A stretch of DNA of 51,830 nucleotides from Chromatiaceae bacterium (GTDB taxonomy: Bacteria > Pseudomonadota > Gammaproteobacteria > Chromatiales > Chromatiaceae), in NCBI GenBank assembly GCA_028277465.1, contig JANQGF010000166.1:1-51830 (forward strand). Reading direction: 5' to 3'. A program made the translations under genes and the position numbers. Below the pieces are notes generated by a model, which saw nothing but the letters and a program-made list of their open reading frames with translations, was not told the origin of the DNA and did no database searches. Positions 1 to 42,971 of this stretch are shown in pieces (the first letter of the stretch is position 1; each line of letters begins with the position of its first letter).

Positions 1-437
1 AGACCCTGGTCCAGCTGACATCTGACTTGTCACGCCTTGGCCTGCGGGTCCAGACGGCGGCCGACCTGGACGAGGCGCTGGAGACCCTGCAAGAAGAGGG
101 CGAGGGCTGTGAGCTGGTGCTCCTGGCCGCTCAGGTGTCCGGGGAGACCACCTGTGATACGATCCAGACCCTGTTGAAACGGACCCAGGGCCCTCATCCG
201 GCCGTGGCCGTGCTCGGAGAGCCCGGGAGCCAGAACCAGATGGCCGGCTGTTTCGGTGTCGGGGCGGTCGGTTTTCTCTCCAAGCCCATCGCCTTGGACC
301 GACTGACCGCATTGCTGGCCGGGGTGCTGCCGGAGCGGGTCACCAGCACATTGCCCCCGACCACGCAGGGCGACTCCAATAGGATCGGTGCGGGAGCCGA
401 CCCGCTCGACCGGCGCGAACAGATGGAGACCACATGA
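1..437 (+). CDS. C-terminal fragment of a protein ending in a degenerate receiver domain
   Basis: The frame is open from the left edge, so the gene starts outside the window and only about 145 C-terminal residues are visible. They resemble a response-regulator receiver fold: a hydrophobic strand ELVLLAAQVSG where the phospho-acceptor Asp normally sits, then GAVGFLSKPIALDRLTALL with the conserved Lys-Pro of the last active-site strand. The Asp position is Ala, so this receiver probably cannot be phosphorylated. The protein is probably the tail of a hybrid histidine kinase or a multi-receiver protein (inference). Its stop overlaps the start of the next gene by 4 bp, indicating translational coupling to a second receiver protein. 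Confidence 0.6.
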   Translation, partial: TLVQLTSDLSRLGLRVQTAADLDEALETLQEEGEGCELVLLAAQVSGETTCDTIQTLLKRTQGPHPAVAVLGEPGSQNQMAGCFGVGAVGFLSKPIALDRLTALLAGVLPERVTSTLPPTTQGDSNRIGAGADPLDRREQMETT

Positions 438-1327
438 ATCGCTACGCCGGTTTCAAGCTCCTGATCGTCGACGACCACGCACATAATCTCTTCACGCTGC
501 GCACCCTGATCGAGACGCACATGGCGGTCACCGTCTTGGAGGCCAGCTCCGGTCAGCAGGCGATCGGCATCACCCACCGGCACCCAGACATCGATCTCAT
601 CATCCTCGACGTGCAGATGCCCGAGATGGATGGCTTTCAGACCGCCTCACTCCTCAAGCTGCGCAAGCGCACCCGCGACATCCCCATCATCTTTCTCACC
701 GCTGCCTTCAAGTCCGAGGAGTTCCAGCAACGCGGGTTTGCGGTGGGCGCAGCCGATTATCTCCTCAAGCCGATCGAAGACAATCAGTTGATCAACAAGA
801 TCAGCACCTATTTTCGGCTGATCGAGAAGGAGCGCGCGCTCAACCAAGTCCTGGAGCGCAAGGTCGCCGAGCGAACCCTGGAACTGGCCGAGGCACGCCA
901 ATACTTGGAGAACATCGTCACGCACATGGGTGAGGCGCTGCTGGTGCTGGAGCCGAGCGGTACCATCAAGCTGACCAATCCGGCTGCCTGCCGCATGCTG
1001 GGTTATAGTAGTGGCGATCTGTTGGGCATGTCGATTGGCGATGTGTTCGAGGAGGAAGGGGACGAACAGGCCGGTGCCTTCATGGGGACCTGGCTGGAGG
1101 CGCTGATCCGCACGGGTGCCTTGAGTAAGATCGATGCGCGCTTCATCGCTCGCGACGGGCGGCGCGTGCCGATTCTCTTCTCGCGGACGGCGATCAAGGA
1201 CAACAGGGGCCAAATCAGCGATATCATCTGTATCGCGAAGGACATGACCGGCTACGTGCGGGTCGACGAGGACGCGGACCCGGCAATGCCTCGGACCGCA
1301 CGCAGAGAGATGTCGGAGGATGGATGA
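434..1327 (+). CDS. Response regulator with receiver, coiled-coil and PAS domains
   Basis: This 297-residue protein starts with a complete receiver domain (about 5-125): the acidic pair D13-D14, phospho-acceptor D59 in IILDVQMPEMDG, T89 and K112 in DYLLKP. A charged helical linker (about 128-155) leads into a PAS domain (about 155-275) with EALLVLEPSG, NPAACRMLGY and a PAC-like end. There is no HTH, kinase or cyclase output, so it probably works as a signalling adaptor, or passes its signal through the PAS domain. It is coupled by ATGA overlaps to the degenerate receiver gene upstream and the ArsR gene downstream. The partner kinase is probably just outside the window. Confidence 0.85.
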   Translation: MNRYAGFKLLIVDDHAHNLFTLRTLIETHMAVTVLEASSGQQAIGITHRHPDIDLIILDVQMPEMDGFQTASLLKLRKRTRDIPIIFLTAAFKSEEFQQRGFAVGAADYLLKPIEDNQLINKISTYFRLIEKERALNQVLERKVAERTLELAEARQYLENIVTHMGEALLVLEPSGTIKLTNPAACRMLGYSSGDLLGMSIGDVFEEEGDEQAGAFMGTWLEALIRTGALSKIDARFIARDGRRVPILFSRTAIKDNRGQISDIICIAKDMTGYVRVDEDADPAMPRTARREMSEDG

Positions 1328-1662
1328 TGAGCGAGCCAATAACACCAACTTTGCCCGAGGACGAGCATACGACCCTCACGGCCAATGCCCTGAAGGCCAT
1401 GGCCCACCCGCTGCGCTGGAAGATCCTTTGTTCGCTCGGAGACAGCGAGCTCTCGGTCGGAGAGATCGTCGAGCGCACCGGCACTTCACAGAGCAATATC
1501 TCCCAGCATCTCGAACAGCTGAGGAACAAGAACATCGTCGTCGCACGCAAAGAGGCGAACCGGATCTATTACCGGATCCGCAACGGCCAATTGCTCGAGC
1601 TCATTGGCATCATGCGGGAGGTGCTCTGCCCGGCCAATCTCGACGACCGGATGCCGAGATAG
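1324..1662 (+). CDS. ArsR-family winged-helix transcriptional repressor
   Basis: A 112-residue ArsR/SmtB-type regulator. The winged helix covers about residues 18-95, with the dimer/wing start ALKAMAHPLRWKILCSL, the recognition helix TGTSQSNISQHLEQLRNK and the wing NIVVARKEANRIYYRI. The classic arsenic-site helix ELCVCDL is ELSVGEI here, so the usual Cys metal ligands are missing; only isolated Cys residues remain (LCSLG and EVLCP). It probably senses something other than As(III), or a redox signal. The start is ATG 1324 or the adjacent ATG 1327, both overlapping the stop of the REC-PAS gene, so the two are translated together. The speE gene follows after 44 bp. Confidence 0.85.
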   Translation: MMSEPITPTLPEDEHTTLTANALKAMAHPLRWKILCSLGDSELSVGEIVERTGTSQSNISQHLEQLRNKNIVVARKEANRIYYRIRNGQLLELIGIMREVLCPANLDDRMPR

Positions 1663-14374: not shown

Positions 14375-15697
14375 TCACCTAACACCCGCAGACGGACCTC
14401 GTCCTAGCCCACCACGCCTCGATTCCACTGATTCTCGAACCCGAAAAGAGCCTACCCCAGCGACCTGCACCACACGACCGCTAAGACCAACCAAAGCACC
14501 ACGAAGCCCCTCCAGCGCAGCGCCCAACAACGCCCCTGCCTTGCCGTCCGACATGCCTCCAGGCAATACCGAGTCGTCCCCCCTAACCCGCTGAATCAGA
14601 TCGACCCGCTCAAGTATCCTTCGTCCTACTTCCGCGCTCCCCGCCCGTTCGATTTTGCAGATATCGTCGACCTCACTAAGTTGGTCGACTTCCGAGCGAT
14701 CGTCTTGTAACGCCCTGAGGATCCCGTGCTCTAGATCCGCCCGTGAGAGCGGAATGATTGGCTGCCAATCATCTTCCGGGTCGGGCAGCCGCTCATAGAA
14801 CAATCGCCCATCTTCACGACCCAGGAATCGTCGCGCGATATACTCGTAGTCACTTTTGTTTTGCTCAATCAAGCGGCGCCGAAGCTTCGGCGACGACACG
14901 CCTAAACGTGCGCTACCAGAGCCAAGAGAACACGCGTATTGAATCAATCGTTTTCGCTTTTCCTCGTCGAAATCCAGTCTTTGGACTTCATCCAAGAATG
15001 CCATTGCTTCCCGCGAAAGTCGCTCATTCCGACGACCCATCCCGCAATCCAGGTCTCTTGCAATGTCCTCAAGCGAAGCCGACCACAAGAAATCGTGAAA
15101 GATACTTGGCCTATTCTGCTCTCCTTCATACGGTCTCGCTATGATACTCTCTTCACCAAAGGCTGAGCTCCAATGATCGAGGATAGTTCGATATACTCCA
15201 TGAAAAGCCCCGCGCGCTTCCCTATAATGGAGCCAAGACTCGAAACCACGCCCCCAAGGCGGGTGAACGACTGATGGTGTCCTCAAGCTCTGGCTGTATA
15301 CAGACTCGAGCCAAGAATCGTGTCGCCGGAAATAAACAATGACTTTGACATCGTAGGAATCAAGAAACTCTCGAACACGCTGCACCGGCCGCTTGAGCAT
15401 CCAGTACTCACTGCTCAAGACAACCGTATGGCATCCCGAGGCTACTACCTCGTCGTGCAGTTCGGCTCGATATCGCTTCAGCGCTTTCAGCCGTTCCTTG
15501 TCATTAAGATGAAGATGCTTCGGACCAAAACCCATTGCACTGCTAAGATCATAATGTGCCTCATGCTTAAGGCCAACAATCGGATACAAGACCCCGTTTT
15601 CAGCCAACAACTCCCGATGAGAACTCAGGCAGGCTTGAATCGCAGTGGTACCGGTCTTATTTGTTCCGATATGCAATATGAGACGTACCGACATCAT
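14375..15697 (-). CDS. PAPS-dependent sulfotransferase-like protein (last gene of the leftward cluster)
   Basis: A 440-residue protein from ATG 15697 (ATG 15694 also possible). The N-terminus carries the 5'-phosphosulfate loop HIGTNKTGTTAIQ (about 9-21). A 3'-phosphate strand-helix YFRRHDSWLESVYSQSL (about 122-137) follows, preceded by LSSEYW. Together these define the sulfotransferase fold that moves sulfate from PAPS to a carbohydrate acceptor. The last 60 residues are odd: Gly/Ala/Leu-rich then basic (ALLGAALEGLRGALVGLSG), with no equivalent in the family, so the 3' end may be a recombined tail. It is the most distal gene of the sulfotransferase cluster. Confidence 0.78.
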   Translation of the reverse strand: MMSVRLILHIGTNKTGTTAIQACLSSHRELLAENGVLYPIVGLKHEAHYDLSSAMGFGPKHLHLNDKERLKALKRYRAELHDEVVASGCHTVVLSSEYWMLKRPVQRVREFLDSYDVKVIVYFRRHDSWLESVYSQSLRTPSVVHPPWGRGFESWLHYREARGAFHGVYRTILDHWSSAFGEESIIARPYEGEQNRPSIFHDFLWSASLEDIARDLDCGMGRRNERLSREAMAFLDEVQRLDFDEEKRKRLIQYACSLGSGSARLGVSSPKLRRRLIEQNKSDYEYIARRFLGREDGRLFYERLPDPEDDWQPIIPLSRADLEHGILRALQDDRSEVDQLSEVDDICKIERAGSAEVGRRILERVDLIQRVRGDDSVLPGGMSDGKAGALLGAALEGLRGALVGLSGRVVQVAGVGSFRVRESVESRRGGLGRGPSAGVR

Positions 15698-16000
15698 CCC
15701 ACCGCCAATTCCCAATTCTTAAAGAGGCACATCGCGAATATTCTCATTCCTCGGATCTGCATGTAGCCGTCTCGACTCACCCTCAACTTTGGGCCGGCTT
15801 CATGACCACCGACTAACAGGTCGTTGAAACAGTTCCGCTCGATGCCCCAAGCCCATCGTCTGAGGCGAAAGATCGCACCGAAATCACCTCGCGGACCGAG
15901 AAGCAGGGCGATCTTCGTGTGTTCAGCCCGGAATGGATGCTTTGATTCCGCATGGCGGCGGCTTCCGGCACACGCGTCCTTGGAGTGTGGCGTGCCTCCC

Positions 16001-16288
16001 ACCATCCGTCGAAACTGGCGACGCGCACCAGATTGTAGGTGGCACTACCGATAGGTAGCGTTGGAACACCTCTCGCCCTGGAAGTCGACATCGGCACTGC
16101 GCCCCGCGAAAGCTCTTGTCCAATGCCCACGCCTCGATCGGCGTCCCATCGACGCTGCAGTGCGCATCCGAGACCAGATCCTGCCACTCGGCCAACCACT
16201 ATACGCGCTCGAAAAGTATGGGAATTTGGATCAGCAGCACCCGCAGCAGACATCTGAGCGGGATCGCGGGATGGCCGCGCATCGACAG
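16001..16288 (-). pseudogene. Relic of an IS5-family (DUF772-type) transposase
   Basis: Pieces of a transposase lie in three minus-strand frames. GHPAIPLRCLLRVLLIQ (16288-16202) resembles the N-terminal helix. AEWQDLVSDAHCSVDGTPIEA plus the following WALDKSF (16195-16109) matches the family's catalytic SVDGTLIEAWASxKSF strand. GSATYNLVRVASF (about 16046-16010) matches the family's C-terminal end. Most of the catalytic core is missing and the pieces are out of frame, so the element is dead. The region 15698-16427 holds nothing else recognisable. Confidence 0.6.
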
Positions 16289-16427
16289 GGGCTCCAAAAA
16301 CAAAAGGGATCGACTTGTTTCTATTGCCCCAACTCCGCTGCAACAGGACCGGGATCTTTCAACGGCCTGGTAGATCACAACTCTTGGCGTCCTCCTGAGT
16401 TGGAATCCAACCCTCCGGGACCTACGC

Positions 16428-17217
16428 TCACCTACCATACTCTGGCAGCTGGCGCTCCAAACGAAAACGTCTCGCCCAGGCCGTATTTCGCTCGTCCCGA
16501 ATCCTCTCGAATCTAGATACTCTCTCGATTGGAACGACCTTACTTTCCCGTACCCCGACATGGCGTGCGATACGTTTCACGGTCGCCAATATGTCATTGT
16601 CAAGCTCTTCATACGTGATACGCAACGGAACAATTCCATGATTCTCAAAAAAAAAGCTCCCAACCAGCCTCTTGCGCAAGAAGGTGCTTATACTACCAAT
16701 GTTCGATTTTCTCATGATCGTATTCAAGCGACTCGAGAATCTGCAGTGCTTTTTCGCTGTGCTTCTTGTTAGTGTGAAATACCTGAGAAGTCGTGGCCTT
16801 GTATAAGGACACAGACTGCGCAATGATATCACTCCTTGTAAGATAAATGTACTTGAACCCAAGAACGTAAGACATCTCGGAAATACACTTGATGAAGTTC
16901 TGAAATTGAAACCAGCTCGCTTTAACTCCTGATACCCCGTTTTTTGTCTTGCGAGACCGCATGTAATTGCGTAAGTATTCATCAGGGCTACGGCCTGGAA
17001 CTTTACGCATATTTCTTGGGATAAATTTATCATTCAGCGCCTCGGTGGGTGTACCAAAACACTTCAGCTCTTTCATCACGTCACACAGGTAGCTACTACC
17101 AGAGCGCGGCGTGATGGCGATGACATAGCAACTTCGCGGATCTGAAATACTTGCTAGTTCATCCAACTGCCTGAGATTCGGTTCGATCACAGCAAATAAG
17201 CGATCTATTCTTTTCAC
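16428..17217 (-). pseudogene. Stf0-type sulfotransferase, split by a frameshift
   Basis: Two overlapping frames form one Stf0-like sulfotransferase (the family of mycobacterial trehalose 2-sulfotransferase). Frame one (17217 down to TAG at 16693) has the phosphosulfate loop ITPRSGSSYLCDVMKE (about 35-50), the EAL/N motif and KYIYLTRSDIIAQSVSLYKA. The rest of the family fold continues in another frame down to 16428 (SFFFENHGIVPLRITYEELD, then RIARHVGV). The switch lies near 16700-16712, beside a run of four T (plus strand). A single-base indel, by mutation or sequencing error, would explain it. As read, the product stops at 174 residues, lacking the C-terminal third. Confidence 0.75.
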
Positions 17218-17240
17218 TTTGGCGTTCTTTCAGTCTGGAA

Positions 17241-19292
17241 TCAGGAGATGCCACCTGGAGAGATGTTTCGATCATCAGCATCGACATAGAACTCACTCAG
17301 CATTCTTGGAGACGCATGCTCAGACCAATGCGCAAGAAATGATTGCACCTTTTTTTCCACTTGATCACCATCTATAAGTTGCCGGATCCCCGCTCCATCT
17401 TGAGCATCTTTATTACTTATCATCTGCAATCTCTTTCTTAGCTCCAGGTCTTGCAAAGCTCCTCCCGTGAAGCCTCGAAAAACCACATCCGGCTCCGTCG
17501 AAAAGTCTTCATACTGCAATACATTATACTCCACGTTCGACTTCTTAAGCGCACTAAGCGCACCTGCTCCCATCGCAAGCGTTCGGAAAAGCCGCTGCGT
17601 CGACCAGCCGAATTTAGCGATAAAGGATGCGCTCCAATCACGAAGATTACGCTTAAGAAAAATAAAACGCGCGCGGGGAAATGTATCGATATAGGCCTGA
17701 ATTGCGTCAGAACTACTAGATCTAAGCTTGATCGCGACGAGATCCGTTCTAACGCCAGCGTAAACAGCGAGCGCGGCGACCGAACAGTTAAGTATACTCG
17801 TCCTGCGGGAATCCGCCTTATAACGATTGATCCCTGTGAAAATATCTGGCTCAGAATAGCTGACCAAACCAATACAACTTATTAACCTGCTAAACAATGT
17901 GCTGCCGCATCTTCCTATAGAAAAAACAAAGACTGGCCTTAAGGACTGATCCTCGACATCTGCAAGGTAAAGCTCTCTCATAACCGTAAGAGGCACTTTG
18001 AAAACTCTGGTTGCATGCTTGTACTGCGCTTGGTACAAGAAGGGCTCATCCATTGCCGCGCGCGGTGTGTCGACCAACAAGAAATCGTTACTTTCGTAAT
18101 CGAAACAATAGGGCGTTAATGCATGGAAGTCGATTTGCCCCTTCGCTCTAAGTGACTGCGAGCCAAGCTTGAAATCCACGCGATCAGCAACGGCCAATCT
18201 CCGTTTGCTTCGGCTAACAATTTTCCCGACTGTGATGTTTGACTGTGAAGGTATCGACTCCGAGTTTGCCGATGACTGCACCTCAGAGGCCTCTGACCTT
18301 GATTGCGCAAAGCGGCGTGCGAGAGGATCCGAATCGGAAGGAAGCTTTCTACAGATCCAAAGCACGAATTGGTCAATAATTGCCTGCCTAAGTTGCAGAT
18401 TATGAGTTTCGTTAACCGGATCGACTGCGGCCTCCAAGAATTTCGAGATATTGGAACGATTGAATAGGGCATTTAGGTATTTTGCAGAAGAAGACCAGAA
18501 CTCTTCCCCTTCCAAAGCCGGATGAACAACCTTATTCGGCATGAAGCTCTCGCCAACCTCACTCCAGGGATAAGGGAAATGAACCGTGAAATGCGTAAAG
18601 GCGCCGGGAACTAACGCCCTCATATCTCCATAACTCAGGCCCTGCCGAACGACCGTAGTCGCGACGAATGATTCGTCATTCGGATAATCCTTACAGGATA
18701 AACCATGCTCCTGGAAATTTGCGCTCAACTCCTGACGAGCGGCAAAAAGTAACTTCACAGCTCGTGCAGTCAGGCGGGTAATCGGAAAAGCACAGCCATA
18801 GATCTTTCCAGTTGGCGAAAACGTTCGAGCCTTTTCATGCCATTTCCAACTCGGAGACCTCTCACTAAAGAAAGGCGCGACAAAATCGAGTTCACAGGAC
18901 TCAAATCGGCGAAAAAATCCCCCCAGATCAGAATAAGTGAACCGCACATCAGGCTCAATCAGCCAGTACGTATCAGCCTCTATTGCGCGCTGTAGAACAT
19001 AATAGAAGTAATCTCCACATAACCATCCGATGCTCTTGCAATCGCTGAATAGACCGAGCTTTGCCAGCTCGTCATTATCAAATCCAAGCTTTTTATAATC
19101 GCGTGTGCAATCTATTTTTGCTCGCGTCTCGTCAGCAACTATAACAAGATCCTTGGGCTCTATATGCTGGCTCAAACACCGCAAAAGACGCTCTTCCTGT
19201 TCTGCGAATCGATGCAGCCGAACCGCAATACACGCTTTCCTCTTATGACCCGCTTCTAGAGGCGTACACTCTCCACCAGCCGCAACAATCAT
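17241..19292 (-). CDS. Fusion of a glycosyltransferase-like domain and a sulfotransferase domain
   Basis: A 683-residue two-part protein. Residues about 20-300 look like a nucleotide-sugar-fold domain: CIAVRLHRFAEQEERLLRCL, then TYWLIEPDVRFTYSDLGGFF, an acidic motif at a strand end as in the metal sites of many glycosyltransferases, then CKDYPNDESFVATTVVRQG. A Ser-rich linker (about 330-360) follows. The C-terminal part (about 450-683) is a sulfotransferase with phosphosulfate loop FSIGRCGSTLFSRLI (457-471) and 3'-phosphate segment ARFIFLKRNLRDWSASFIAK. It may add and sulfate a sugar on the same chain (inference). The ST domain is clear; the N-terminal call is tentative. It is relatively AT-rich. 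Confidence 0.7.
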   Translation of the reverse strand: MIVAAGGECTPLEAGHKRKACIAVRLHRFAEQEERLLRCLSQHIEPKDLVIVADETRAKIDCTRDYKKLGFDNDELAKLGLFSDCKSIGWLCGDYFYYVLQRAIEADTYWLIEPDVRFTYSDLGGFFRRFESCELDFVAPFFSERSPSWKWHEKARTFSPTGKIYGCAFPITRLTARAVKLLFAARQELSANFQEHGLSCKDYPNDESFVATTVVRQGLSYGDMRALVPGAFTHFTVHFPYPWSEVGESFMPNKVVHPALEGEEFWSSSAKYLNALFNRSNISKFLEAAVDPVNETHNLQLRQAIIDQFVLWICRKLPSDSDPLARRFAQSRSEASEVQSSANSESIPSQSNITVGKIVSRSKRRLAVADRVDFKLGSQSLRAKGQIDFHALTPYCFDYESNDFLLVDTPRAAMDEPFLYQAQYKHATRVFKVPLTVMRELYLADVEDQSLRPVFVFSIGRCGSTLFSRLISCIGLVSYSEPDIFTGINRYKADSRRTSILNCSVAALAVYAGVRTDLVAIKLRSSSSDAIQAYIDTFPRARFIFLKRNLRDWSASFIAKFGWSTQRLFRTLAMGAGALSALKKSNVEYNVLQYEDFSTEPDVVFRGFTGGALQDLELRKRLQMISNKDAQDGAGIRQLIDGDQVEKKVQSFLAHWSEHASPRMLSEFYVDADDRNISPGGIS

Positions 19293-20525
19293 TTCAACCC
19301 TCGCGCCTCTTTACCAAGCATCACTTACCCTAGCCAGAACAAAGCACAGTACCCGATGGCATCGACGCTTCATCATCGAACTGTTCAATGATCGGCCGCG
19401 AATCCGTCGATCTTAATGATTCCACAGTCTTTGGCCACACTCGTGAATAAATTATATACTGCGGAGAGGGATGCGACAATCAGGATTATTGTCGCCCGAC
19501 TCGGGTTAGGTTCATATATCGGCGATTTCGGGCAGGAAAATTCAGAATACACTCGAATGGAGTCACCAATTGACGGTTAAAGAAACCCTGCTTAATCGGT
19601 CGGTGCCGCGTGGCAGCAGGATGATAACTCGACACTTGGAAAGGTTACTTTTACTGGCACCAAAAAGTAGTCGGCTGCAGACACCATGCAACACGATCCT
19701 GGCTCACAGTTCCGACGATACGATTGACCCCTCTTTTCTTTCTCGCATCATAGTCGATACGAATAAGTTGAATGACGTTCTTTCGAACTCGAAAATGCAT
19801 GCTTGGATCTCCTCGATAGGATAGCCCGACCGCCCTCGGGCGAGGCAAACGTGTGTTCATCGCCGACGATCATCGGCTACTTAGTCCCTATCGCCCGCCG
19901 TTGGCGAAGGCTGTGGCACAACCAGATTAGCCAGATGAGGACCTAAAGCAAACCTGAATAACGGGTAGCACAGGTAGGCGGACCGAAAAGAAACTTGGCA
20001 CAGAGACTGCCCAGGGGAAAGCGATGATCCTTGTGCCGGTCCGACATCCAGCACGGCGCAACGATTCTCGGTCGCCCAACTGATCGGAGATCCAGCAACA
20101 CCATGACCCCCATTCGGCACATTCTGTGCGAATCTCGGCCAGGGTGACCGAGGCCCAGGGCATCACTAAGACCTACTGCACAGTCAATTGTTGCATAGAT
20201 GTTCGCAGTTTATAATTCATACGTGAGCATGTGCCTCGAACGGGAAGATCCCCAAACGACAGGCGGTTGTCGAGCCAAAATCAACTCGATTGCTCCACAA
20301 TCCGGAGTCGAGTCCACCGCAACCCCTTTACAGTGCCCGCCAGCGACGTTCGACGGTGTCGTGTCTCTTGCGGATTTACTCATCGCATCGCTATTCTCAA
20401 GAGAAACCGTTCCTGACGAAGCGTTTCCTGTGAACGCTTGTAAAACCCCATTTTTGGCACTCGATCGCGTCACTTGGGACGACTTCCGCCAAGATCAACA
20501 TGCAAAATAGACGTCAGAGGTAATA
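19293..20525. other. Long gene-poor interval within the island
   Basis: About 1.2 kb with one truncated gene (19651-19800, listed separately) and no other supported gene. Frames at 19881-20120, 19927-20166 and 20199-20510 have no recognisable domains, mixed strands and no good ribosome sites. The interval separates the leftward sulfotransferases from a single rightward one. It is probably scar tissue from rearrangements, plus the promoter of the gene at 20526. Confidence 0.4.
19651..19800 (-). pseudogene. Truncated paralog of the MHFRVRK-family hypothetical gene
   Basis: The first 33 residues (MHFRVRKNVIQLIRIDYDAR, then KKRGVNRIVGTVS) match the N-terminus of the gene at 13721-14089 with only a few changes. 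The similarity then stops abruptly and the frame ends 16 unrelated residues later. A clear ribosome site (GAGGAG) precedes the ATG. The remaining 85 or so residues of the family are missing, so this is a broken copy. The two copies bracket 13.7-19.8 kb of sulfotransferase genes and transposase relic. Confidence 0.7.
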
Positions 20526-21104
20526 ATGAAAACCAAAGTCTTTTGTATAGGTTTTCACAAGACCGGCACCACGAGCATCGCTGTTGCCTTGAAAAGATTC
20601 GGCTATCGTGTTACCGGGCCGAACGGAGTAGACGACCCAAACATTGGATCAAATGTACTGGATATGGCGTATAGCTTGGTAGAACAATACGACGCCTTTC
20701 AAGATAACCCTTGGCCGATCATCTATAAGGAACTAGACGCCAAGTATCACGGCAGTAAATTTATCCTATTGCTGCGAGACTCGGAGTCTTGGATAAATAG
20801 TCAAGTCAAACATTTCGGTCGCTCGGAAACACCTATGAGAAAATGGATCTACGGTGTCGGATGCCCGAAAGGAAACGAGGATATCTATGTTAAACGGTTT
20901 GAAAACCACAACAACGAAGTGAAGCGCTACTTCCAGAATCGCCCTCGAGACTTGCTGATACTGGACTTAGCTAAGGGCAGCGGGTGGGAGGAGCTGTGTC
21001 CATTTCTAGGAGTGGACATTCCTAACACTCCATTTCCACATGTCAACAAGGCGGGTGCCAGAGAAAGACGCCAGGATCGAATGTCTTGGCGTAAAAAAAT
21101 ATAA
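20526..21104 (+). CDS. Small sulfotransferase-family protein
   Basis: A 192-residue single-domain sulfotransferase-like protein. The phosphosulfate loop is FCIGFHKTGTTSIAVAL (about 6-22) and the 3'-phosphate segment is KFILLLRDSESWINSQVKHF (78-97). It ends with the basic tail ERRQDRMSWRKK, as in the Sulfotransfer_4-like group. AGAGGT lies 5 to 10 bases upstream of the ATG. It is the only rightward gene among about 20 kb of leftward genes, so it has its own promoter or arrived or inverted separately. The length is short but complete for this group. Confidence 0.8.
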   Translation: MKTKVFCIGFHKTGTTSIAVALKRFGYRVTGPNGVDDPNIGSNVLDMAYSLVEQYDAFQDNPWPIIYKELDAKYHGSKFILLLRDSESWINSQVKHFGRSETPMRKWIYGVGCPKGNEDIYVKRFENHNNEVKRYFQNRPRDLLILDLAKGSGWEELCPFLGVDIPNTPFPHVNKAGARERRQDRMSWRKKI

Positions 21105-21264
21105 GAAGTTTGCCCGGGAGGCGACAAGAGCAACGGTCAACGCAAAAGTATTTCGCCTCGCTTTCGACCGCATTACAACGGGCTCACGTCTTGCGGTCGT
21201 CTAACGCTTATCGCAGAATGATGCTCACGCGGTTTGCAATCAAGCCACCGAACGGAGGCTCCAA

Positions 21265-21957
21265 TCAGTATTGATATCCAATAAGATCTATTTCTTCGGC
21301 AAAAAGTTCTGCAATCCTCGCCCGTTCCGCGTCGCTTAGAATCTCACGATAGTTTCTCTTATCTTTCCTGAACGTCGACTTGGTCCTTGGCAATTCCAAC
21401 TTCTCTGGAATACCCAGTTGAAGCCGTATCTTCTCGAGATCTTCCGAAAGACTCTCAAATCGGCAAACCGCGTCCACCGCCACTCGGCCATCAATCATGT
21501 ACAGATCGCGACCTCGAAGCTTGAGTCGCAACGGGATATCAGAGTCAAGAAACTCCGCAATCGTGGGCCTCGGTTCTGACCTGCAATGCCAATAGTACAT
21601 CGAAATCAAACGATCCCAAGGATTTCGTTCGACACAGAACTTAAAGTAACTATCCCAAATCGGCTGACCAATATAACGCCGGATCCTATTGGCCGAGATA
21701 TGGTTGTAATACTTTCGCTCCTTCTTGCCCTTTCGAGCTAATCTCCTCGATTCCTGCGAATTCATTTCCGAACCGGTCACCAGGTAGTTCTGGGGTCCAC
21801 GGTAGCCCAACGAACGCCTTATCTCTTCATCTTTCTCCGGAATCGTCGTGATAATGTCATTCAGCCCGCAAAACCGAGACAGAGCGATCTCAATCGACGT
21901 ACCGGCTGTCTTGTTCGTCTTTATGAAAATGAACTTATAATCATGAGAAATGATCAT
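21265..21957 (-). CDS. Sulfotransferase family 2 protein (carbohydrate sulfotransferase-like)
   Basis: A 230-residue protein of the Sulfotransfer_2 type, the group that includes chondroitin and heparan 2-O sulfotransferases. Visible signatures: YKFIFIKTNKTAGTSIEIAL (7-26, phosphosulfate loop), HISANRIRRYIG (about 86-97), and FKFCVERNPWDRLISMYYWH (105-124, 3'-phosphate site). A late CRFESLSEDLEKI is also characteristic. It would sulfate a sugar hydroxyl of a polysaccharide using PAPS (family knowledge); the acceptor is unknown. It is separated from the upstream gene by 166 bp containing a mobile inverted-repeat element. Confidence 0.85.
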   Translation of the reverse strand: MIISHDYKFIFIKTNKTAGTSIEIALSRFCGLNDIITTIPEKDEEIRRSLGYRGPQNYLVTGSEMNSQESRRLARKGKKERKYYNHISANRIRRYIGQPIWDSYFKFCVERNPWDRLISMYYWHCRSEPRPTIAEFLDSDIPLRLKLRGRDLYMIDGRVAVDAVCRFESLSEDLEKIRLQLGIPEKLELPRTKSTFRKDKRNYREILSDAERARIAELFAEEIDLIGYQY

Positions 21958-22005
21958 AGTTTCTTCCAGTTGTTCATCGAGCCCCCGGATTCATCTCTAA
22001 GGAAC

Positions 22006-22074
22006 GATTCAGAAACAAGTGGTGCAACTTGAGCCGCCCTTGTTGGGCTACGGTGTGTAGGTTGTTTCTGAATC
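22006..22074. mobile_element. MITE-like element, copy 1 (internally deleted)
   Basis: A 69-bp element with perfect 13-bp terminal inverted repeats (gattcagaaacaa / ttgtttctgaatc). It is nearly identical to the element at 51738-51826 but lacks about 20 bp that form one arm of an internal palindrome. Both copies are preceded by taaggaac. It has no coding capacity and lies between two leftward sulfotransferase genes. Confidence 0.8.
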
Positions 22075-22123
22075 CTTGCTAACATCCTGAACCACCTCCC
22101 CCCGGTAAAGAAGGACAACGGGC

Positions 22124-23281
22124 TCACGTCTGGATGGGGCAAGAGTCACCGAGCGAACTCGAACGCTTTTCATCCATTATAACGGGAACATGCCTCTTCT
22201 TCCTGGTGCGAGACTCCTTGCTCATAACCCTCTCAGCCGCTAGCTTCAGCCGAAGCTGGTGCATCCATTTTGCGACCTCCTCGGCCGCCATACCTTCACG
22301 CCATCGCCTTTCATATTTCCCGCCCAATTGCTGTGCCAACCATTGCAGATCCTCCGGGCAGAAGGTCAACAGATCCTGCTCCGAACGGATAGCAACATCA
22401 TCATGTCTATAAATGTCCTCCATCAAAGGTGACCCCAAGCGGTCTTCCATCCAGTCGACATCGCGTCTTATCGCCTCGATGGCTGGCGCAATCAGACTCG
22501 AATGAAGCCGCACCTTGCCACCACGCAGCTCCCGCATCTTCCGAATCAGTGCCCTATTCTCACCAATCACCTGGGGGCCCACCCCATATCCCGGCCCATA
22601 CTTTCGGTAGGCGTAAAGAAATCCTAGCGCCTTCAAGGACAGTCCCTCGTTCGCGCGGATCGAACCGCTCGCATCAAATCTAATCCCCAGCCTGCGACAA
22701 AAATCCTGAACGACATCGCCATTAACGAAGTTCACCGGATCGAACTTCCACAAACGGACGCGGTCTTTCCCAAAGACCCGGTCAAGCTTCCTGAGATGCC
22801 AATACTTCGGACATGTCGTCTCCAATCGGTCAAAGCACTTCATCCCCCCCTTCACGCGTTGCTGAAATGCGCTCTCCATAAAGCCCTTTGGCGACCGTAT
22901 GTAGCCTACCGCCCAGACATCATGCGTCCGCTTCAAAAGGTAACCGTACAGATCCTCCAGCTCCGGACTTGCCATGTTGCTGGCCCTCTCGCCCGAGAGG
23001 ATCGCGGCTCTATCGTTCGCGGATTGCAGCTCCTTCTCCAAACGCAAGAACATCCTCTCTCGAAGACCTGCAACATCCCTTCTCGTCAATCCGCGCTTTC
23101 TGTGAGGATGAAACCTATGCGGGCTTGCGCCAAAAAGCGTTCCCATAGCGCCGCTGAGATTGCCCCGTCGTCCCATCCTGACAAAATAGAACCGATCATC
23201 CGTTAGATTGGCACAGAGCGACTGTTGTATAGATGAGGTACCTGTCTTATGCATCCCTACATGGAGGATACAACTATTCAT
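22124..23281 (-). CDS. Sulfotransferase-like protein
   Basis: A 385-residue protein with the phosphosulfate loop CILHVGMHKTGTSSIQQSL (4-22) and 3'-phosphate segment WAVGYIRSPKGFMESAFQQR (123-142), preceded by ILSGERASN at the position of the family's conserved Ser/Glu. The C-terminal third is basic and helical (KWMHQLRLKLAAERVMSKES) and may hold the long acceptor or bind a membrane. It belongs to the same broad group as the gene at 14375-15697 and the N-terminal domain of the next gene upstream. Confidence 0.8.
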   Translation of the reverse strand: MNSCILHVGMHKTGTSSIQQSLCANLTDDRFYFVRMGRRGNLSGAMGTLFGASPHRFHPHRKRGLTRRDVAGLRERMFLRLEKELQSANDRAAILSGERASNMASPELEDLYGYLLKRTHDVWAVGYIRSPKGFMESAFQQRVKGGMKCFDRLETTCPKYWHLRKLDRVFGKDRVRLWKFDPVNFVNGDVVQDFCRRLGIRFDASGSIRANEGLSLKALGFLYAYRKYGPGYGVGPQVIGENRALIRKMRELRGGKVRLHSSLIAPAIEAIRRDVDWMEDRLGSPLMEDIYRHDDVAIRSEQDLLTFCPEDLQWLAQQLGGKYERRWREGMAAEEVAKWMHQLRLKLAAERVMSKESRTRKKRHVPVIMDEKRSSSLGDSCPIQT

Positions 23282-23334
23282 GGTCTCCTGCGCCTCTATC
23301 TTCCGATTTTGCCTTCACAGACAACACCCGAGAC

Positions 23335-25272
23335 TCATGTCGGCCTTTCCTCAAGTGCACTCTGAATCTCATGAATGAAAGCCATTAGCTTTTCATCTTG
23401 CTTCACCATCGCGACTTGGCCGGAAATCGCCGTCTGAGCCAAATCCCAATCATAAGGCGCTTGATCTAAATCGAGATGCTCCAGGATCATCTTTGTAAGC
23501 CCGTTGGGAGAAGCAACGAGTTCTCCATAATGCACCAGCAAACTGGAATCGGGGTTTTTCGCCAGAAACTGCCGATACACCCTATAGTGGTCACCTATCT
23601 CCCGAAGAATCTTCTTCACCTGGACTTCACGCTCTTCCCGTTCTGAGAAACTCCATTCCTCCATCGCCTCGGATGCGTATAGCCGATTTCGAACAACTTC
23701 CGCGACATCCCGGAGCAGAAAGACGAACTTGCCTCCCGGGAAGAGCACCCGCAACAAGTTTAGTACCGCCATATTATTGTAAAGAACCTCCCTGAAGCCC
23801 CAACGCATATCGCCCCGAAGGCGGCTCCCAAAGTAGTCACAAACAAAGCCACGAAGCCTCTCCTCAAATCCTGTCAACGAAATCGGGTTTGCCCATTCTA
23901 TGGCCGCGTTCGGATCCTGCAATGTCGGAAGAAGTAGAGCCGGTCCAGCATTCTCCGAATCGACTTTCGGGAATCGCTCCTGCCTCCTCATTTGCGCATA
24001 GGCCTTGCCTAAGCCATTAAGAAATCCGCCGTGTTCGCCCCAAAGGACGAGGTGTGGGTGACAATTGAGGAGTCGCTGCACCAAGTCACTACCCGCGTGT
24101 GCAGTCGACATCACGAAAACCGGTTCTTCCAAATCGCCCCGTTTCTGAACGTTCATTATCTCAGCATTGCTGGTTTCCGACCTCGACGCAGGTTGTCGGT
24201 TCGACGGGTCTCCAGCTTCCTCGGGTTGCCCTGCCGAGCCGCTAAGTTCGTCCACCCTCCTTCTCAACTGCGCAACCTCATCAAATTGTCGTTTCAGCAA
24301 CAATAAGAAGGAGGTATTGATCTGACCTTGCGTCACACAAAAGTCCTTGTGTGTTAGCGCACTCGTGTCTATTTCTGATTGGCCGAATCTGGCAAGAACC
24401 TTATTCAGTCGCTCTCGATCCTCTTCGACATCACCCTTAACCGACAACAGGTCCTCTTCCGAGGGCAACATCTCCGCCAGATCGCAACCACCCGGCTGGT
24501 TTACCAAAAGACCTGCTTGTTCAAGCATCCTTTGCAGCTGTATCGGAAGGATCGGCTCATAAAACTGGTTATTAAACAACGCCCATAAGGCCAGAGCGAC
24601 AGGATTCGGAGTCTCATTAACACGCGCAATCGCAAACTGCGGCGTCAATAACCTGTAATACTCCAGAAAATCAACCACAACGTCGCCGCATGCGTCGAAG
24701 TTTCGCACCGCCATATCCGACCATTCCTCACTGAGCCACACTTTCAGCGAGGGATAGAATTTGAGCTGCCAATCCCGGCGCCATTCAGCAAACGGACGAA
24801 TGGGGCCATGGTAGGTTTTATGCTTTAGACCCCATTGCAAGTACGCACTACGGGCCCAAGCATCATGACGCCGAATATAGACAATCACCCTAATCGCGAT
24901 CTGTTGCCGTTTCAAAGCCGTCAGAATTGGCACGATAAGCTTGCCCTGCACAAACATGGATTCATTGGACCAGATCGCCCTGGATAACCCCTCGCTCCTC
25001 CATGCTCCGATGGCTTCGGACAACATCTCCTCGAGTTGTACCGCGGCCCGCCGTCGTCCAGCGCGCAATAGCTCAGGCCACCCGCTCGCTTTTTGCCATG
25101 GGAAACGCTTGACGGGTGATCCCTCGCCCATGAGACCAAGATACGCCGTCTGCTGCTCGCGCAATCTTTCCTGATTATCCCGCAGTGTTCCTTGAATCGA
25201 CGAAGATCCCGTCTTGCCTGTGCCAATATGCACAATCAGCTCGAATTCAGCTGGCGCGCGCTCTCTTATCAT
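23335..25272 (-). CDS. Protein with two sulfotransferase-like domains
   Basis: A 645-residue protein. Domain 1 (about 10-330) has VHIGTGKTGSSSIQGTL (14-30) and a 3'-phosphate segment VYIRRHDAWARSAYLQWGL (131-149). A helix and Pro/Ser linker (about 325-380) follow. Domain 2 (about 383-645) is a second sulfotransferase-type fold with FVMSTAHAGSDLVQRLLNCH (386-405) and KFVFLLRDVAEVVRNRL. In domain 2 the loop Gly-x-Gly-Thr is replaced by AHAGSD, so cofactor binding may be altered. The stop of the upstream GT4 gene overlaps this start by 4 bp, so synthesis of the two is coupled. It could sulfate two positions on the same chain (inference). Confidence 0.75.
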   Translation of the reverse strand: MIRERAPAEFELIVHIGTGKTGSSSIQGTLRDNQERLREQQTAYLGLMGEGSPVKRFPWQKASGWPELLRAGRRRAAVQLEEMLSEAIGAWRSEGLSRAIWSNESMFVQGKLIVPILTALKRQQIAIRVIVYIRRHDAWARSAYLQWGLKHKTYHGPIRPFAEWRRDWQLKFYPSLKVWLSEEWSDMAVRNFDACGDVVVDFLEYYRLLTPQFAIARVNETPNPVALALWALFNNQFYEPILPIQLQRMLEQAGLLVNQPGGCDLAEMLPSEEDLLSVKGDVEEDRERLNKVLARFGQSEIDTSALTHKDFCVTQGQINTSFLLLLKRQFDEVAQLRRRVDELSGSAGQPEEAGDPSNRQPASRSETSNAEIMNVQKRGDLEEPVFVMSTAHAGSDLVQRLLNCHPHLVLWGEHGGFLNGLGKAYAQMRRQERFPKVDSENAGPALLLPTLQDPNAAIEWANPISLTGFEERLRGFVCDYFGSRLRGDMRWGFREVLYNNMAVLNLLRVLFPGGKFVFLLRDVAEVVRNRLYASEAMEEWSFSEREEREVQVKKILREIGDHYRVYRQFLAKNPDSSLLVHYGELVASPNGLTKMILEHLDLDQAPYDWDLAQTAISGQVAMVKQDEKLMAFIHEIQSALEERPT

Positions 25273-26516
25273 AGACTCTTGCTTGAACTGTTCAAACGCT
25301 GGTAGAGATCAATATGCGTGTTGGTACTGTCTTCTACCGAAGTATAGCTGGGCAACGACTCGCAGATGCTACTGTGGATCCCAGCGTCATCAATGATACG
25401 ACTAACGACTGTAGATAGCGAAATACTGTCGCGAGCGCGATAATTCAGTCCGCCTACTCCAGGTTGTACCTTTTCAGCCATTCCACCGATGTCGGGACAA
25501 ATCACCGGTCGGCCAAACTTGAAGGCCTCCTGTATGACAAGAGGCGAGTTCTCCCACCAGACCGATCCCATTATCACCCAGTCCACCTCGCCCATGAGAC
25601 GACCCATTTCCTCGGGCTCATACGGGCCATGCATCCGAGCCACACCTTTCAACCGATCGAGCAAAGAACTAATTTTGGCTTGAAACTCCGCTGATTGATA
25701 GTTCAGCGCTGAGCCGAATAAATCCAGCGTCACCTGCTTACGCTCTTTCAGGCTCAAATTAACAAAAGCCTCGAGAATGACATCCACCCCTTTGAAGGGA
25801 TTGATCTGGCCAAAGTAGGCAAAACGCGTCCTTTTTTCGTTCGCAACAAGTGGTTGGAGCGGTACGCGATGGCCCGCTGGCAATCCGTTCTCAATAATCG
25901 AAATCTTGTCCTCCGATATCCCCCAAGCCACATAGCGGTCCTTCAGGAAGCAGCTTGGAGACACAAAGGCATCCACTATTCGGAAGAAGCTCTTGATATA
26001 TTGCTCCCGCAGGAAAAAATCTTCCGGTGTCAGTTCCGGATAGCACAGGTGACATTCGCGTGGGCTGTACCGGTAACACAGCCGACCATCAGTCTTGGTC
26101 ATTTGACCGTTATTCAAGCAGATCGCGATATACTCATGCAGAGTCAAGACAATGCTAGCCGTGGGACAAGTTCTCTTCGCGGCATAGATCATCTCCAGGC
26201 CGAGATGAAAGTAGTGATGAAAATGGATGACATCCGGGCGAATACTCCGCAGCAGGACGGCAAAATCACTGTCTTTCCCGAGCGGAATTGTCGCAGTGAG
26301 GTTGTGGATGTCGGCGTTTCCCGAGATCAGAAACTCGCGCGGGTTCACACCAGAGATCGGCGTCCCAAGGTGCAGCAGCTCTTGCGGGGCGCGGCCAACG
26401 AACCAGGCTTCATTCGCTGCCGTGTCGTTTATCCCGTTAAAGAGATGATAGGCTGCTAGCTCGCCGCCGCCCTTACTGAAGTTCGGGTGACCGTGGCTCA
26501 AGATAAGCACCCGCAT
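25269..26516 (-). CDS. Family 4 glycosyltransferase
   Basis: A 415-residue GT-B fold enzyme. The N-terminal Rossmann domain starts VLILSHGHPNFSKGGGELAA (3-22), with DVIHFHHYFHLGLEMI. A Cys cluster (ICLNN, RLCYRYSPRECHLCYPE) follows HEYIA, as in some GT4 enzymes. The C-terminal donor domain has FAYFGQINPFKGVDVILEAF and the EX7E-type ENSPLVIQEAFKFGRPVI. It is expected to add a sugar from a nucleotide donor to the growing capsule repeat in the cytoplasm (inference). It is separated by 2 bp from the gene upstream and overlaps the gene downstream by 4 bp. Confidence 0.88.
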   Translation of the reverse strand: MRVLILSHGHPNFSKGGGELAAYHLFNGINDTAANEAWFVGRAPQELLHLGTPISGVNPREFLISGNADIHNLTATIPLGKDSDFAVLLRSIRPDVIHFHHYFHLGLEMIYAAKRTCPTASIVLTLHEYIAICLNNGQMTKTDGRLCYRYSPRECHLCYPELTPEDFFLREQYIKSFFRIVDAFVSPSCFLKDRYVAWGISEDKISIIENGLPAGHRVPLQPLVANEKRTRFAYFGQINPFKGVDVILEAFVNLSLKERKQVTLDLFGSALNYQSAEFQAKISSLLDRLKGVARMHGPYEPEEMGRLMGEVDWVIMGSVWWENSPLVIQEAFKFGRPVICPDIGGMAEKVQPGVGGLNYRARDSISLSTVVSRIIDDAGIHSSICESLPSYTSVEDSTNTHIDLYQRLNSSSKSL

Positions 26517-26518
26517 GA

Positions 26519-28936
26519 TCAGCCCCCTGCCTCGTCGGGGCTCGCAATCTCACCTGACCGAATCTTCTTGACATACCGCCAACCATTGTAAAAGGTCAAT
26601 AGCTGTCTCGATCCGACGATCTCCGAGGCGTTTTGCGATTGACGCTCAAGATGCCAGAGCGCAGCTGCAGGCACTAGCCAAAGCCGCTTGCCCTCTTTAC
26701 GCAGTGCGAGACAGAGGTCACTATCCTCGAAATCACCGATGAGATATCCCTCATCCAGGCCACCTGCCTCTAAGTAATCTCGTGTGCGGAGCATGATACA
26801 AGCGCCTGTAAGCAATGGCTGCTCGACGGGTTCCTGGTCGCCGTTCCACGCCTGTCCCTTGCCGGGATGAATGTTCAACAGAAAACCTGGCAGGACGGGG
26901 TCCTCTCGAGGACGCATGCCTGCATGTTGAATCGAGTCATCGCTGAATAGTAGAAGTGGGCCCACGGCCCCCGCCTCCGGCAGACCCAAGAGCGAACGGT
27001 GAAGCTCGCCGAGCCAACCGGGATGCTTGGGAATGACGTCGGAATTCAACAGCAGGAGAGTCTCGGCCCGTGCCAACTTAGCGCCAACGTTATTCGCACC
27101 GGCAAACCCCAAATTCACGCCATACCAGACCACCCTGAACGGGAGCTCGAACAGCTGATAATAGGATATTGCCATATCCTGCACCATATAGGTGATCGAA
27201 GGATCATCCACGACATAGATGAGATCGACATCGCAGAAATCCGGATCCCCTACAAAGTGTGCAAGTTGGTGACGAATGAAGTCAAAACGCCCAAACAGAG
27301 GAACGATCACTGAAACACTGGGTTGGCTTGGTGCCTCTCCAAACTGACGCTCGACCACATTGGGGGAAGAGCGCGTCCCGCTCGTACTTAGCGCTGCGAT
27401 GGCCCGGCCGAGGCCATTGTCAAAGACGTCGAACAGAGATGCGCGCGGCGCCGGTACCAAACCTAGTACTTCTTTCACCAAATCCAACGAGCTCTTGTTG
27501 GTCGTATCCGTCGGCACTTTCAGCCAGACCTCACCCAACTCGCCATAGTCGAAACATAAGACACGCGCCTCGCCACGACGCGTCGGCATAGGAGCAAGAC
27601 AAACGAAACCACATAGTTCCTGAACTTCAGAGAAGCGGGGCCGGTGTATCTGAGCGACGTCGTTTCGGATCAGCGGCGAAAACCGCCCGTCAAGCCCGAC
27701 TGCTTCCCCTTCCTCGCCCCTAATAGAAATAGATTGTGGCTCACGCATCGGAAAGAGCTTCCAGCCAAATATCAGCACCCCTTCTTCGTCCAGCGGGAAG
27801 GCCCGATCGATAGCTCCGATTAGTCTGACCGGATCCTCAATGTTGAAAGGCGTGTTTGGGTAACGCGAGTAAAACTCCTCTCGTTGCAATCGTCCGATAT
27901 TCTCTCGCGAAACCTCAGGATCCTGTGAACTCTGCAGTTCTGACAGAAGCTTGATGACATGCCCGGCCAGGCCATGGTAACCCCCAATAGCCGCCGATAA
28001 TTCCGGCCAGGCCAACTCCCGAGCGGATGTGAATATCGTCTCCACCTGCCCATTGCGATCTCTAATCTTCAGCCTGAGCTCCTGCGGCCACTTCTTGTCC
28101 TTTCTCAAAACACAGACAAAGCCCAAAGGTTCCTCGGTCGACCAAGGAAACCGCGGCAATAGATCGGGGCGAGCATACCTGCGTATTCGCGAGGAAATCT
28201 CCTGGGTTTCACCCCCGCCGATCAGTTCCAGCACCTCCATCTGATCCGGCCGTATCGCGATCCATCCATTCAGGATCAAGGTCCGATCATCCACGATAAA
28301 GCCATGGTCGCACGCCGCAAACTGACGAGTTGGCAATGCACTCGAAGTGACACTTCCAGACAAAGTAGCGGCAACCTGGGTGAGCGGATGATCAGAACCG
28401 AGAGAGTGCCGCAAGGCAGCAAGGAACTGCGGGCCCGAATGTAGCCAATACTGCTGCAGAACAGGTTCAATATCTGCACGATGTCTCAAAGGTACGAATG
28501 GAAGAATCACATACTTGCCACTTGGCATTGCCATGGCGAGACTGGCATTCTCCTCACAACGAGGCACAACCAGGACGAATCCATGCTTGCCTGCTCGATC
28601 CTCGACCTGACCCGACATCGCTTGGGCAACATCCAGACGCGAAACACGGTCGATCGTAACCCGATTGATACCACTTACGAGCGGCGTAACCCGATAGGAC
28701 CTCTTCTCCAAGACCCCGCGACGGCGTTCGGTCAGAATCGCAAACCCTTGCACCTGATCCTCTGGATCGAAAACCCAGCCGATGATCGCCAGATCACCCT
28801 CTTTCGACATGGCCGCGAAGTCCACATAGGCCTTGACATTCACGGCGGATCTGAGAGTCTCGACCTTGCTAGCACCAACCTCCTTGACCGAGGTGACCTG
28901 GCTCGTTTCAGCTTGCTGCATAGCGTTCTCTAACAT
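26519..28936 (-). CDS. Glycosyltransferase (GT2) with three N-terminal beta-repeat modules
   Basis: An 805-residue protein. Three related modules (about 45-150, 212-305 and 383-478) each start with an acidic strand and GW (IIGWVFDPED, ILNGWIAIRP, IFGWKLFPMREP) and end with GFV (GFVLVVP, GFVCVLR, GFVCLAP). They look like beta-sandwich modules and may bind glycan or partners. The C-terminal GT2 domain (about 540-790) has SVSVIVPLFGR, YVVDDPS (D577-D578), NLGFAGANNVGAKLA and LLLLNSDVIP (D633), then a late ED motif DFEDSDLCLALR. The modules are not recognised as a named family. The start overlaps the stop of the upstream gene by 29 bp. Confidence 0.82.
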   Translation of the reverse strand: MLENAMQQAETSQVTSVKEVGASKVETLRSAVNVKAYVDFAAMSKEGDLAIIGWVFDPEDQVQGFAILTERRRGVLEKRSYRVTPLVSGINRVTIDRVSRLDVAQAMSGQVEDRAGKHGFVLVVPRCEENASLAMAMPSGKYVILPFVPLRHRADIEPVLQQYWLHSGPQFLAALRHSLGSDHPLTQVAATLSGSVTSSALPTRQFAACDHGFIVDDRTLILNGWIAIRPDQMEVLELIGGGETQEISSRIRRYARPDLLPRFPWSTEEPLGFVCVLRKDKKWPQELRLKIRDRNGQVETIFTSARELAWPELSAAIGGYHGLAGHVIKLLSELQSSQDPEVSRENIGRLQREEFYSRYPNTPFNIEDPVRLIGAIDRAFPLDEEGVLIFGWKLFPMREPQSISIRGEEGEAVGLDGRFSPLIRNDVAQIHRPRFSEVQELCGFVCLAPMPTRRGEARVLCFDYGELGEVWLKVPTDTTNKSSLDLVKEVLGLVPAPRASLFDVFDNGLGRAIAALSTSGTRSSPNVVERQFGEAPSQPSVSVIVPLFGRFDFIRHQLAHFVGDPDFCDVDLIYVVDDPSITYMVQDMAISYYQLFELPFRVVWYGVNLGFAGANNVGAKLARAETLLLLNSDVIPKHPGWLGELHRSLLGLPEAGAVGPLLLFSDDSIQHAGMRPREDPVLPGFLLNIHPGKGQAWNGDQEPVEQPLLTGACIMLRTRDYLEAGGLDEGYLIGDFEDSDLCLALRKEGKRLWLVPAAALWHLERQSQNASEIVGSRQLLTFYNGWRYVKKIRSGEIASPDEAGG

Positions 28937-31556: not shown

Positions 31557-31625
31557 CGAAAAAGCAACACTTGAAGGGAGTTCTGAAAATAAGCCTGATG
31601 ATCAGGCGCCGACATGAACCACACG

Positions 31626-34262: not shown

Positions 34263-34335
34263 TGTACCCGAATGCGATAAAGGGAGAAGCTCGCAGGGAT
34301 TCTACGACTTGACGCGAAGGATGTCCGGTAGCATC

Positions 34336-35415: not shown

Positions 35416-35499
35416 GACTGGCATTCTACAGAACCCCATACCCGCGCGCATCGCGCACTCGGCCAATCTCCCCACCATTGCCCATCCAGAATGAATGCC

Positions 35500-38538: not shown

Positions 38539-39200
38539 GCGGCTTTGGTGCCCTTCCGGTAGGCATTCAGCGCATCCTGAATGCTGTCGAACCAGATCGC
38601 CTTACCCTCACGCAACCAGAGACCGGCCTGGCAGAGGTCTTTCAGGATCCCCTCGCTGTGCGAAACCATGATCAGATTCGCCTTGTCGATACGCTCCCTG
38701 AACGCCTTCTTGGCCTTTTCCTTGAACGCGAGGTCTCCAACGGAAGTGGCTTCATCGGAGAGATAAAGATCGAAATCAAAGGCCAATGAAAGCCCGAAGA
38801 GCAGTCGGCTGCGCATACCGCTGGAATAGGTCTTCACAGGCTCATCGAAGGCCTTGCCGATCTCGGCGAAGTCCTGCACGAACGCGATGATCTCGGCAAT
38901 CCGGGCACCGTCACCATGCACGCGGGCAACGAACTTGACGTTTTGCCGACCCGTCATCGCGCTCTGGAATCCGCCCCCCAGACCGATCGGCCAGGACACC
39001 CGACAGTGACGGATAATCCGGCCCCGATCGGGGTGATCCATGCCTCCGATTAAGCGCAGAAGCGTGGACTTCCCGGCGCCGTTACGGCCAACCAAACCAA
39101 CGCTGACGCCTTTCGGCAAACGAAAGTCCACGCCACGCAATACCCAGTTGCTCCCCGCATGGTTGTGGTAGCGTTTATAGACGTCTCGAACTTCAATCAT
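38535..39200 (-). CDS. kpsT: Capsule export ABC transporter ATPase KpsT
   Basis: A 221-residue cytoplasmic ATPase. MIEVRDVYKRYHNHAG is the family start, and its ATG overlaps the kpsM stop by 4 bp, so the longer open frame to 39287 is rejected. Walker A is GRNGAGKST (38-46), the signature SSGMRSRLLFGLSLAF, and Walker B LYLSDEATSVGD, as in KpsT/CtrD. It powers export of the lipid-linked polysaccharide with KpsM. Confidence 0.93.
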   Translation of the reverse strand: MIEVRDVYKRYHNHAGSNWVLRGVDFRLPKGVSVGLVGRNGAGKSTLLRLIGGMDHPDRGRIIRHCRVSWPIGLGGGFQSAMTGRQNVKFVARVHGDGARIAEIIAFVQDFAEIGKAFDEPVKTYSSGMRSRLLFGLSLAFDFDLYLSDEATSVGDLAFKEKAKKAFRERIDKANLIMVSHSEGILKDLCQAGLWLREGKAIWFDSIQDALNAYRKGTKAA

Positions 39201-39979: not shown

Positions 39980-39982
39980 GGA

Positions 39983-42862: not shown

Positions 42863-42971
42863 TGATAAGACCTCAATCGCAATCAGTCCCAGATACTTGA
42901 CCCGATCAATTCAATTGCCGGATCAGTGTCGAGCCCGACCTGATGGCGACCCTGAATTCTGCAAGGTGCTC

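Follow-up and report, generated by a model that had tools for sequence, protein, structure and literature searches.

A predicted GT-A-like domain joined to a sulfotransferase module in a capsule cluster of a Chromatiaceae bacterium

Could one protein both add a sugar to a bacterial capsule and sulfate it? This question is raised by a gene of a Chromatiaceae bacterium (GCA_028277465.1, contig JANQGF010000166.1). The window, which is the whole stretch of DNA that was analyzed, covers positions 1 to 51,830 of this contig. The gene is located at 17241-19292 on the minus strand, which also holds all of the protein features given below. It encodes 683 amino acids, in which a GT-A-like domain is followed by a linker (residues ~291-390, 18123-18422) and a sulfotransferase module. 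The original prediction had described one 683-residue protein joining both domains but gave no strand, and the open reading frame confirms that protein on the minus strand.

The C-terminal half belongs, by its motifs, to the PAPS-dependent sulfotransferase superfamily. The sulfotransferase domain covers residues ~451-683 (17244-17942) and is preceded by an N-terminal extension of the module (LTPYCFD...EPFLYQAQ..., 17943-18140) that is conserved in a 7-sequence alignment. The loop SIGRCGSTL (residues 458-466, 17895-17921; GRCGSTL is 460-466) is the 5'-phosphosulfate-binding loop, and R548 and S556 (17625-17651) are the 3'-phosphate-binding residues of the PAPS site. The GRCGSTL loop, SEPD, KLR, R548, and S556 are conserved in all seven homologous modules. 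This half had been called clear beforehand. Motifs and homologues bear that out, but the profile match is weaker than was implied, since PF13469 (Sulfotransfer_3) scores 24.8 bits, below its curated cut-off of 27.

Searching with the C-terminal half (tblastn) identified two Thioclava plasmid proteins and one broken Acaryochloris copy. Of 293 genomes of the host class, 6 matched a profile of the module, the window's own among them. One locus (L043) carries a generic sulfotransferase and was left out of the alignment (A9). Apart from it, the module with its extension occurs at five loci in four other genomes, alone at three (L039-L041) and fused to a GT2 domain at two (L042 and L044). None of 308 alphaproteobacterial genomes matched the profile, which says little because Thioclava, likewise an alphaproteobacterium, carries the module. 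No copy was found in the viral contigs scanned with the C-terminal half. A gene for a VTT-domain membrane protein adjoins all five gammaproteobacterial copies (L039-L042 and L044), which hints at a lipid-linked substrate. The VTT-domain protein of L041 has a weak likeness to the undecaprenyl-phosphate transporter UptA. The GT2 halves of L042 and L044 are nearest to TIGR04283, an "arsenosugar biosynthesis glycosyltransferase", at 97 and 107 bits, under its cut-off of 182.

The N-terminal half was explored through its predicted fold. The domain covers residues ~14-270 (18483-19253). Residues 14-300 were modeled with AlphaFold2 from eight sequences, each taken either from the window or from its related loci. 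The model has a pLDDT of 74.5 and a pTM of 0.73; its weak regions are protein residues 241-264 and the C-terminal end. A full-length model made with no alignment was discarded (pLDDT 32.6). Foldseek returned 245 matches in the PDB at E<=0.001, and the best 50 of the 245 are all glycosyltransferases, mostly GT6 enzymes together with B3GalT5 and LARGE1. Their TM-scores are modest, about 0.35-0.43. The top VIA match is the chondroitin polymerase CHSY3-CHPF (Z 12.9, rmsd 3.4, 184 residues aligned), and 42 of the best 50 VIA rows, which range in Z from 10.9 to 12.9, are glycosyltransferases. A similar picture was obtained against predicted viral structures, where a Tetraselmis virus glycosyltransferase came first. 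The model and these searches support a GT-A glycosyltransferase fold, of Rossmann-like alpha/beta type, for the N-terminal domain. The original prediction had been tentative about a glycosyltransferase half; the predicted fold is GT-A rather than one unrelated to glycosyltransferases, and that half is now supported by AlphaFold2, Foldseek, and VIA.

The domain also has a candidate active site. According to PMC7185993, a DXD motif, an xED motif, the glycine of the G-loop, and a C-terminal histidine are conserved in the core of GT-A enzymes, and a catalytic acid of the xED type is defined as the one that opens the alpha-F helix. In the window's protein, E113-P114-D115 (18948-18956), within WLIEPDVRF (110-118), is a DXD-like acidic motif. 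It corresponds to E100-P101-D102 of the model, directly after the strand 95-99. PNDES (204-208, 18669-18683) contains the candidate catalytic acid in an xED-like position, where D206 and E207 open a predicted helix (193-203 of the model, starting at D193-E194). H257-P258 (18519-18524) could supply the C-terminal metal histidine (C-His), in a region of low confidence with a local pLDDT of <50. GWLCGDYF (89-96, 19005-19028) contains D94. In the 14-row alignment A7, D94, E113, D115, and D136 are invariant in every row. NDES is invariant in 8 of 8 aligned sequences, as is H257, which is also found in at least 90% of the A7 rows (row L018 stops earlier). The acidic motif does follow a predicted strand, as had been proposed. 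It is invariant, and it is ExD and not DXD.

The position of this motif was compared with that of GT6. Counted along the query in the alignment, the DVD of bovine alpha-1,3-galactosyltransferase occupies positions 133-135, and the glutamate of its HDES is at 225. With 92 added, these become residues 225-227 and the catalytic Glu 317 of the literature numbering. VIA pairs 1..229 of the model with 121..360 of the bovine enzyme (2jck, printed 1121..1360), which is a shift of 120 to 131. ExD/DVD calls for a shift of 125 and E207/E317 for one of 123, and both are within that range, which comes from aligned ranges with no gaps shown. The registers of the ExD and of the catalytic Glu thus appear compatible with GT6, as a consistency check from aligned ranges. 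On the earlier question of whether the motif aligns with a DXD metal site, the register agrees with DXD as far as these ranges allow.

These residues bear on whether the domain is catalytic. It could be a non-catalytic GT-A-fold module that binds a glycan or nucleotide and presents an acceptor to the sulfotransferase, and ExD in place of DXD, the poorly modeled histidine region, and fusions to F5/8 type C modules elsewhere, which show that the domain serves as a building block, are all in keeping with this. We consider it unlikely, as the best-conserved residues are the acidic ones of the candidate active site and stand-alone versions of the domain occur in polysaccharide loci and phage-like contigs. 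A glycosyltransferase remains the preferred reading of this half.

Sequence searches do not connect the domain to known enzymes. Residues ~20-270 had no convincing match in Pfam at E<=10, where a single one (0.055) is ascribed to chance, and no match in NCBIfam at E<=1. PF00535 (GT2) did not match the N-terminal half at E<=10; the Thioclava protein compared below matches it at 1.9e-25, and a profile comparison with that protein detected no similarity to the N-terminal domain. Among chains of solved structures, the whole protein and a 14-sequence profile both returned noise (for the profile, best E 0.47 with unrelated proteins). Alignment A6 against the bovine alpha-1,3-galactosyltransferase, one GT6 sequence, gave a probability of 0.1 and an E of 0.6 in hhalign. 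There is thus no sequence link to any solved glycosyltransferase, which counts against a bifunctional enzyme. The modest Foldseek TM-scores and the near-equal VIA scores of nucleotidyltransferases and of the phosphotransferase CpsY, which share the fold, count against it as well. The remaining 8 of the best 50 VIA rows are MobA, GlmU, and KdsB (Z 10.9-11.7) or CpsY (8j2n_B, Z 11.3), so the N-terminal half could be another GT-A-fold enzyme fused to a sulfotransferase, for example a Stealth/CpsY-like sugar-phosphate transferase or a nucleotidyltransferase. This seems quite improbable, since no Stealth or nucleotidyltransferase family of Pfam matched at E<=10, only glycosyltransferases are among the best 50 Foldseek matches, and the partner of the same module elsewhere is a glycosyltransferase. 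A glycosyltransferase is therefore still favored over these enzymes.

Relatives of the N-terminal domain are few and scattered. The bacterium's own genome has no second copy. In a single-sequence search, the domain was absent from 189 other near relatives and from 368 other genomes of the host class. A sample of the phylum contained it in 3 other genomes of 398. In another class it was found in 6 of 385 genomes, three of which were already known from the phylum sample. A seventh genome (G511, loci L017 and L019) was not counted because its matches are confined to the F5/8C portion of the profile; these loci seem, by eye, to have a different glycosyltransferase-like N-terminus. The GT-A-like domain itself is fused to F5/8 type C modules in L009 and L010, and L011 and L013 were unused because of an in-frame TGA. 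Five records of Paracoccus plasmids have relatives of the domain. The plasmid match H5 (P. kondratievae) was excluded as a short fragment spanning two small ORFs. A species-level genome collection contributed six loci, two from Paracoccus aeridis and one each from P. yeei, P. endophyticus, a Rhodopila MAG, and Acinetobacter pecorum. These six are a lower bound because the scan of the collection demanded short exact motifs. The 13 other rows of A7 have 17-29% identity to the window's domain.

Two viral contigs carry relatives, while tblastn of phage records found no N-terminal domain and two viral-contig scans with remote branches of the family found none. On phage-like contigs, the domain (L021, 5061-5981; L022, 3219-4118) lies near endolysin and tail-spike genes, and in these it looks like a surface-modifying cargo gene. 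In L021, it also adjoins a gene resembling the polysaccharide pyruvyltransferase of L025. One remote branch (L018/L020) is connected to the window's family by hhalign (E 1.7e-13). L020 falls just under the cut-off of DUF3405 (PF11885; E 1.2e-5, 24.7 bits, cut-off 25), with the similarity around the ExD motif, whereas the window's domain has no match to PF11885 at E<=10. Nothing on DUF3405 was found in the open-access literature searched. Overall, the domain occurs in capsule loci, on plasmids, and on temperate-phage-like contigs, and it can be stand-alone, F5/8C-fused, or sulfotransferase-fused.

The neighborhood of the gene points to capsule synthesis. The fusion gene sits in a low-GC, sulfotransferase-rich island of a Kps-type capsule cluster. 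The island is about 11 kb (14375-25272) and has seven sulfotransferase-like genes of several families, two of which were recognized mainly by eye from P-loop-like motifs. Its GC content is about 0.47-0.55, lower than that of its flanks (0.60-0.69 upstream), and it looks like an imported sulfation island. The capsule cluster (25269-44288, minus strand) contains a GT4 gene, three GT2 genes, and genes for a KpsE-family protein, an ABC-2 transporter, an export protein, and a KpsS-like protein. Another gene of the island (23335-25272, minus strand) encodes a 645-residue protein with an N-terminal P-loop-like sulfotransferase motif, seen by eye, and a C-terminal PF13469 domain; it is possibly two sulfotransferases in one chain. 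APS kinase is present in the host genome, so PAPS can be made. In Acinetobacter pecorum (L028), the homologue of the domain lies among Kps genes, and Paracoccus endophyticus (L025) has it in a pyruvyltransferase/sulfotransferase polysaccharide locus; both loci were confirmed by profile. Neighbor genes were profile-scanned in some loci, and these are therefore given as examples and not as a frequency of context.

The island also has possible signs of decay. A Stf0-type sulfotransferase gene (PF09037) at 16428-17217 (minus strand) is split across two frames, which reflects either a pseudogene with a frameshift or a mistake in the assembly. The fusion gene itself starts with an ATG at 19292 that has a GAGG-type ribosome-site-like sequence directly 5', and the plus strand at 17241-19292 is interrupted by many stops. 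Eight genes elsewhere in the window served to train a codon model, the fusion gene being excluded. The annotated frame came out on top in all 21 overlapping segments of 60 codons. The margin is clear across both domains and negligible (0.3-0.5) in two linker segments (codons 301-390), and there, as at 421-510, the score drops slightly below zero. A single real coding frame is likelier than a chance run-on because of these 21 segments and because conserved residues are intact on both sides. Alternatively, two genes of a decaying island may have run together recently without making a functional protein. This would fit the adjoining split gene, island stretches with no clear genes, the marginal linker, and the finding of the sulfotransferase fusion only in the window among N-terminal-domain sequences, yet it is very doubtful given the consistently preferred frame, the invariant residues kept by both halves, and analogous GT2 fusions elsewhere.

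The fusion is thus best read as a functional protein, and on balance it is probably a cytoplasmic bifunctional capsule enzyme that combines a GT-A-like sugar transfer with sulfation from PAPS. The N-terminal domain would transfer a sugar from a nucleotide-sugar to the growing lipid-linked capsule glycan. E113 and D115 would hold the donor, probably with a metal and possibly with the help of H257, and E207 or D206 would be the catalytic acid. The C-terminal domain would then use PAPS to sulfate the added sugar, or one close by, while the linker would hold both sites on one acceptor. The transferase activity, donor, acceptor, use of metal, order of steps, and shared target residue are what we infer in this scheme. 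The predicted fold, the conserved candidate sites, and the context support two activities, and this reading is strengthened because the two activities recur, fused or adjacent, elsewhere, besides the capsule context. The occurrence of the fusion in one genome only and the frameshifted neighboring Stf0 gene weigh against it. If the first half is a glycosyltransferase, the sulfated sugar would be identified as well, since the second half would most likely act on whatever sugar the first one adds; one enzyme would then build and sulfate a sugar. It would also assign a function to a domain that matches neither Pfam nor NCBIfam and is borne by plasmids and phage-like contigs. A broader view is more tentative, namely that the domain founds a mobile and so far undescribed family of glycosyltransferases for surface glycans, that a single chain adds and at once sulfates one capsule sugar, and that the module is interchangeable among unrelated glycosyltransferase domains.

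No description of such a fusion was found in the open-access literature; subscription journals were mostly outside the search. Sulfated bacterial polysaccharide clusters have been described (PMC11641403, PMC11766843, PMC8205485), and the portions consulted of these papers do not mention a glycosyltransferase-sulfotransferase fusion. Among the sequences found, this exact combination of N-terminal domain and sulfotransferase is in the window's genome only. CAZy GT6 (alpha-1,3-galactosyltransferase, blood-group GTA/GTB) accounts for most of the best 50 Foldseek matches; its enzyme has DVD where the window has ExD, and sequence similarity was not detected. Stand-alone Paracoccus proteins (e.g. WP_080623233.1) and their relatives have about 28-30% identity over the domain and share its GWLCGDY, ExD, PNDES, and HP motifs. 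In P. yeei, the domain is unfused, and a separate sulfotransferase gene comes directly after it. In P. endophyticus (L025), the domain gene is followed by a pyruvyltransferase gene and then by a sulfotransferase gene, all unfused.

The closest architecture is that of a Thioclava sp. protein (WP_339114817.1, 654 aa, annotated "glycosyltransferase"), which has an N-terminal GT2 domain (PF00535) and the same C-terminal module, with 25% identity to residues 358-601 of the window's protein, extension included. The gammaproteobacterial L042 and L044 are also like the window, with the glycosyltransferase domain N-terminal and the module with its extension C-terminal. All three have a conventional GT2 half (PF00535), whereas that of the window's protein does not match GT2 and has no detectable sequence kinship to that of Thioclava. 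The glycosyltransferase-sulfotransferase fusion is a recurrent architecture because the same module is fused to GT2 in Thioclava, L042, and L044. What appears to be new here is the use of an undescribed GT-A-like domain as its glycosyltransferase half.
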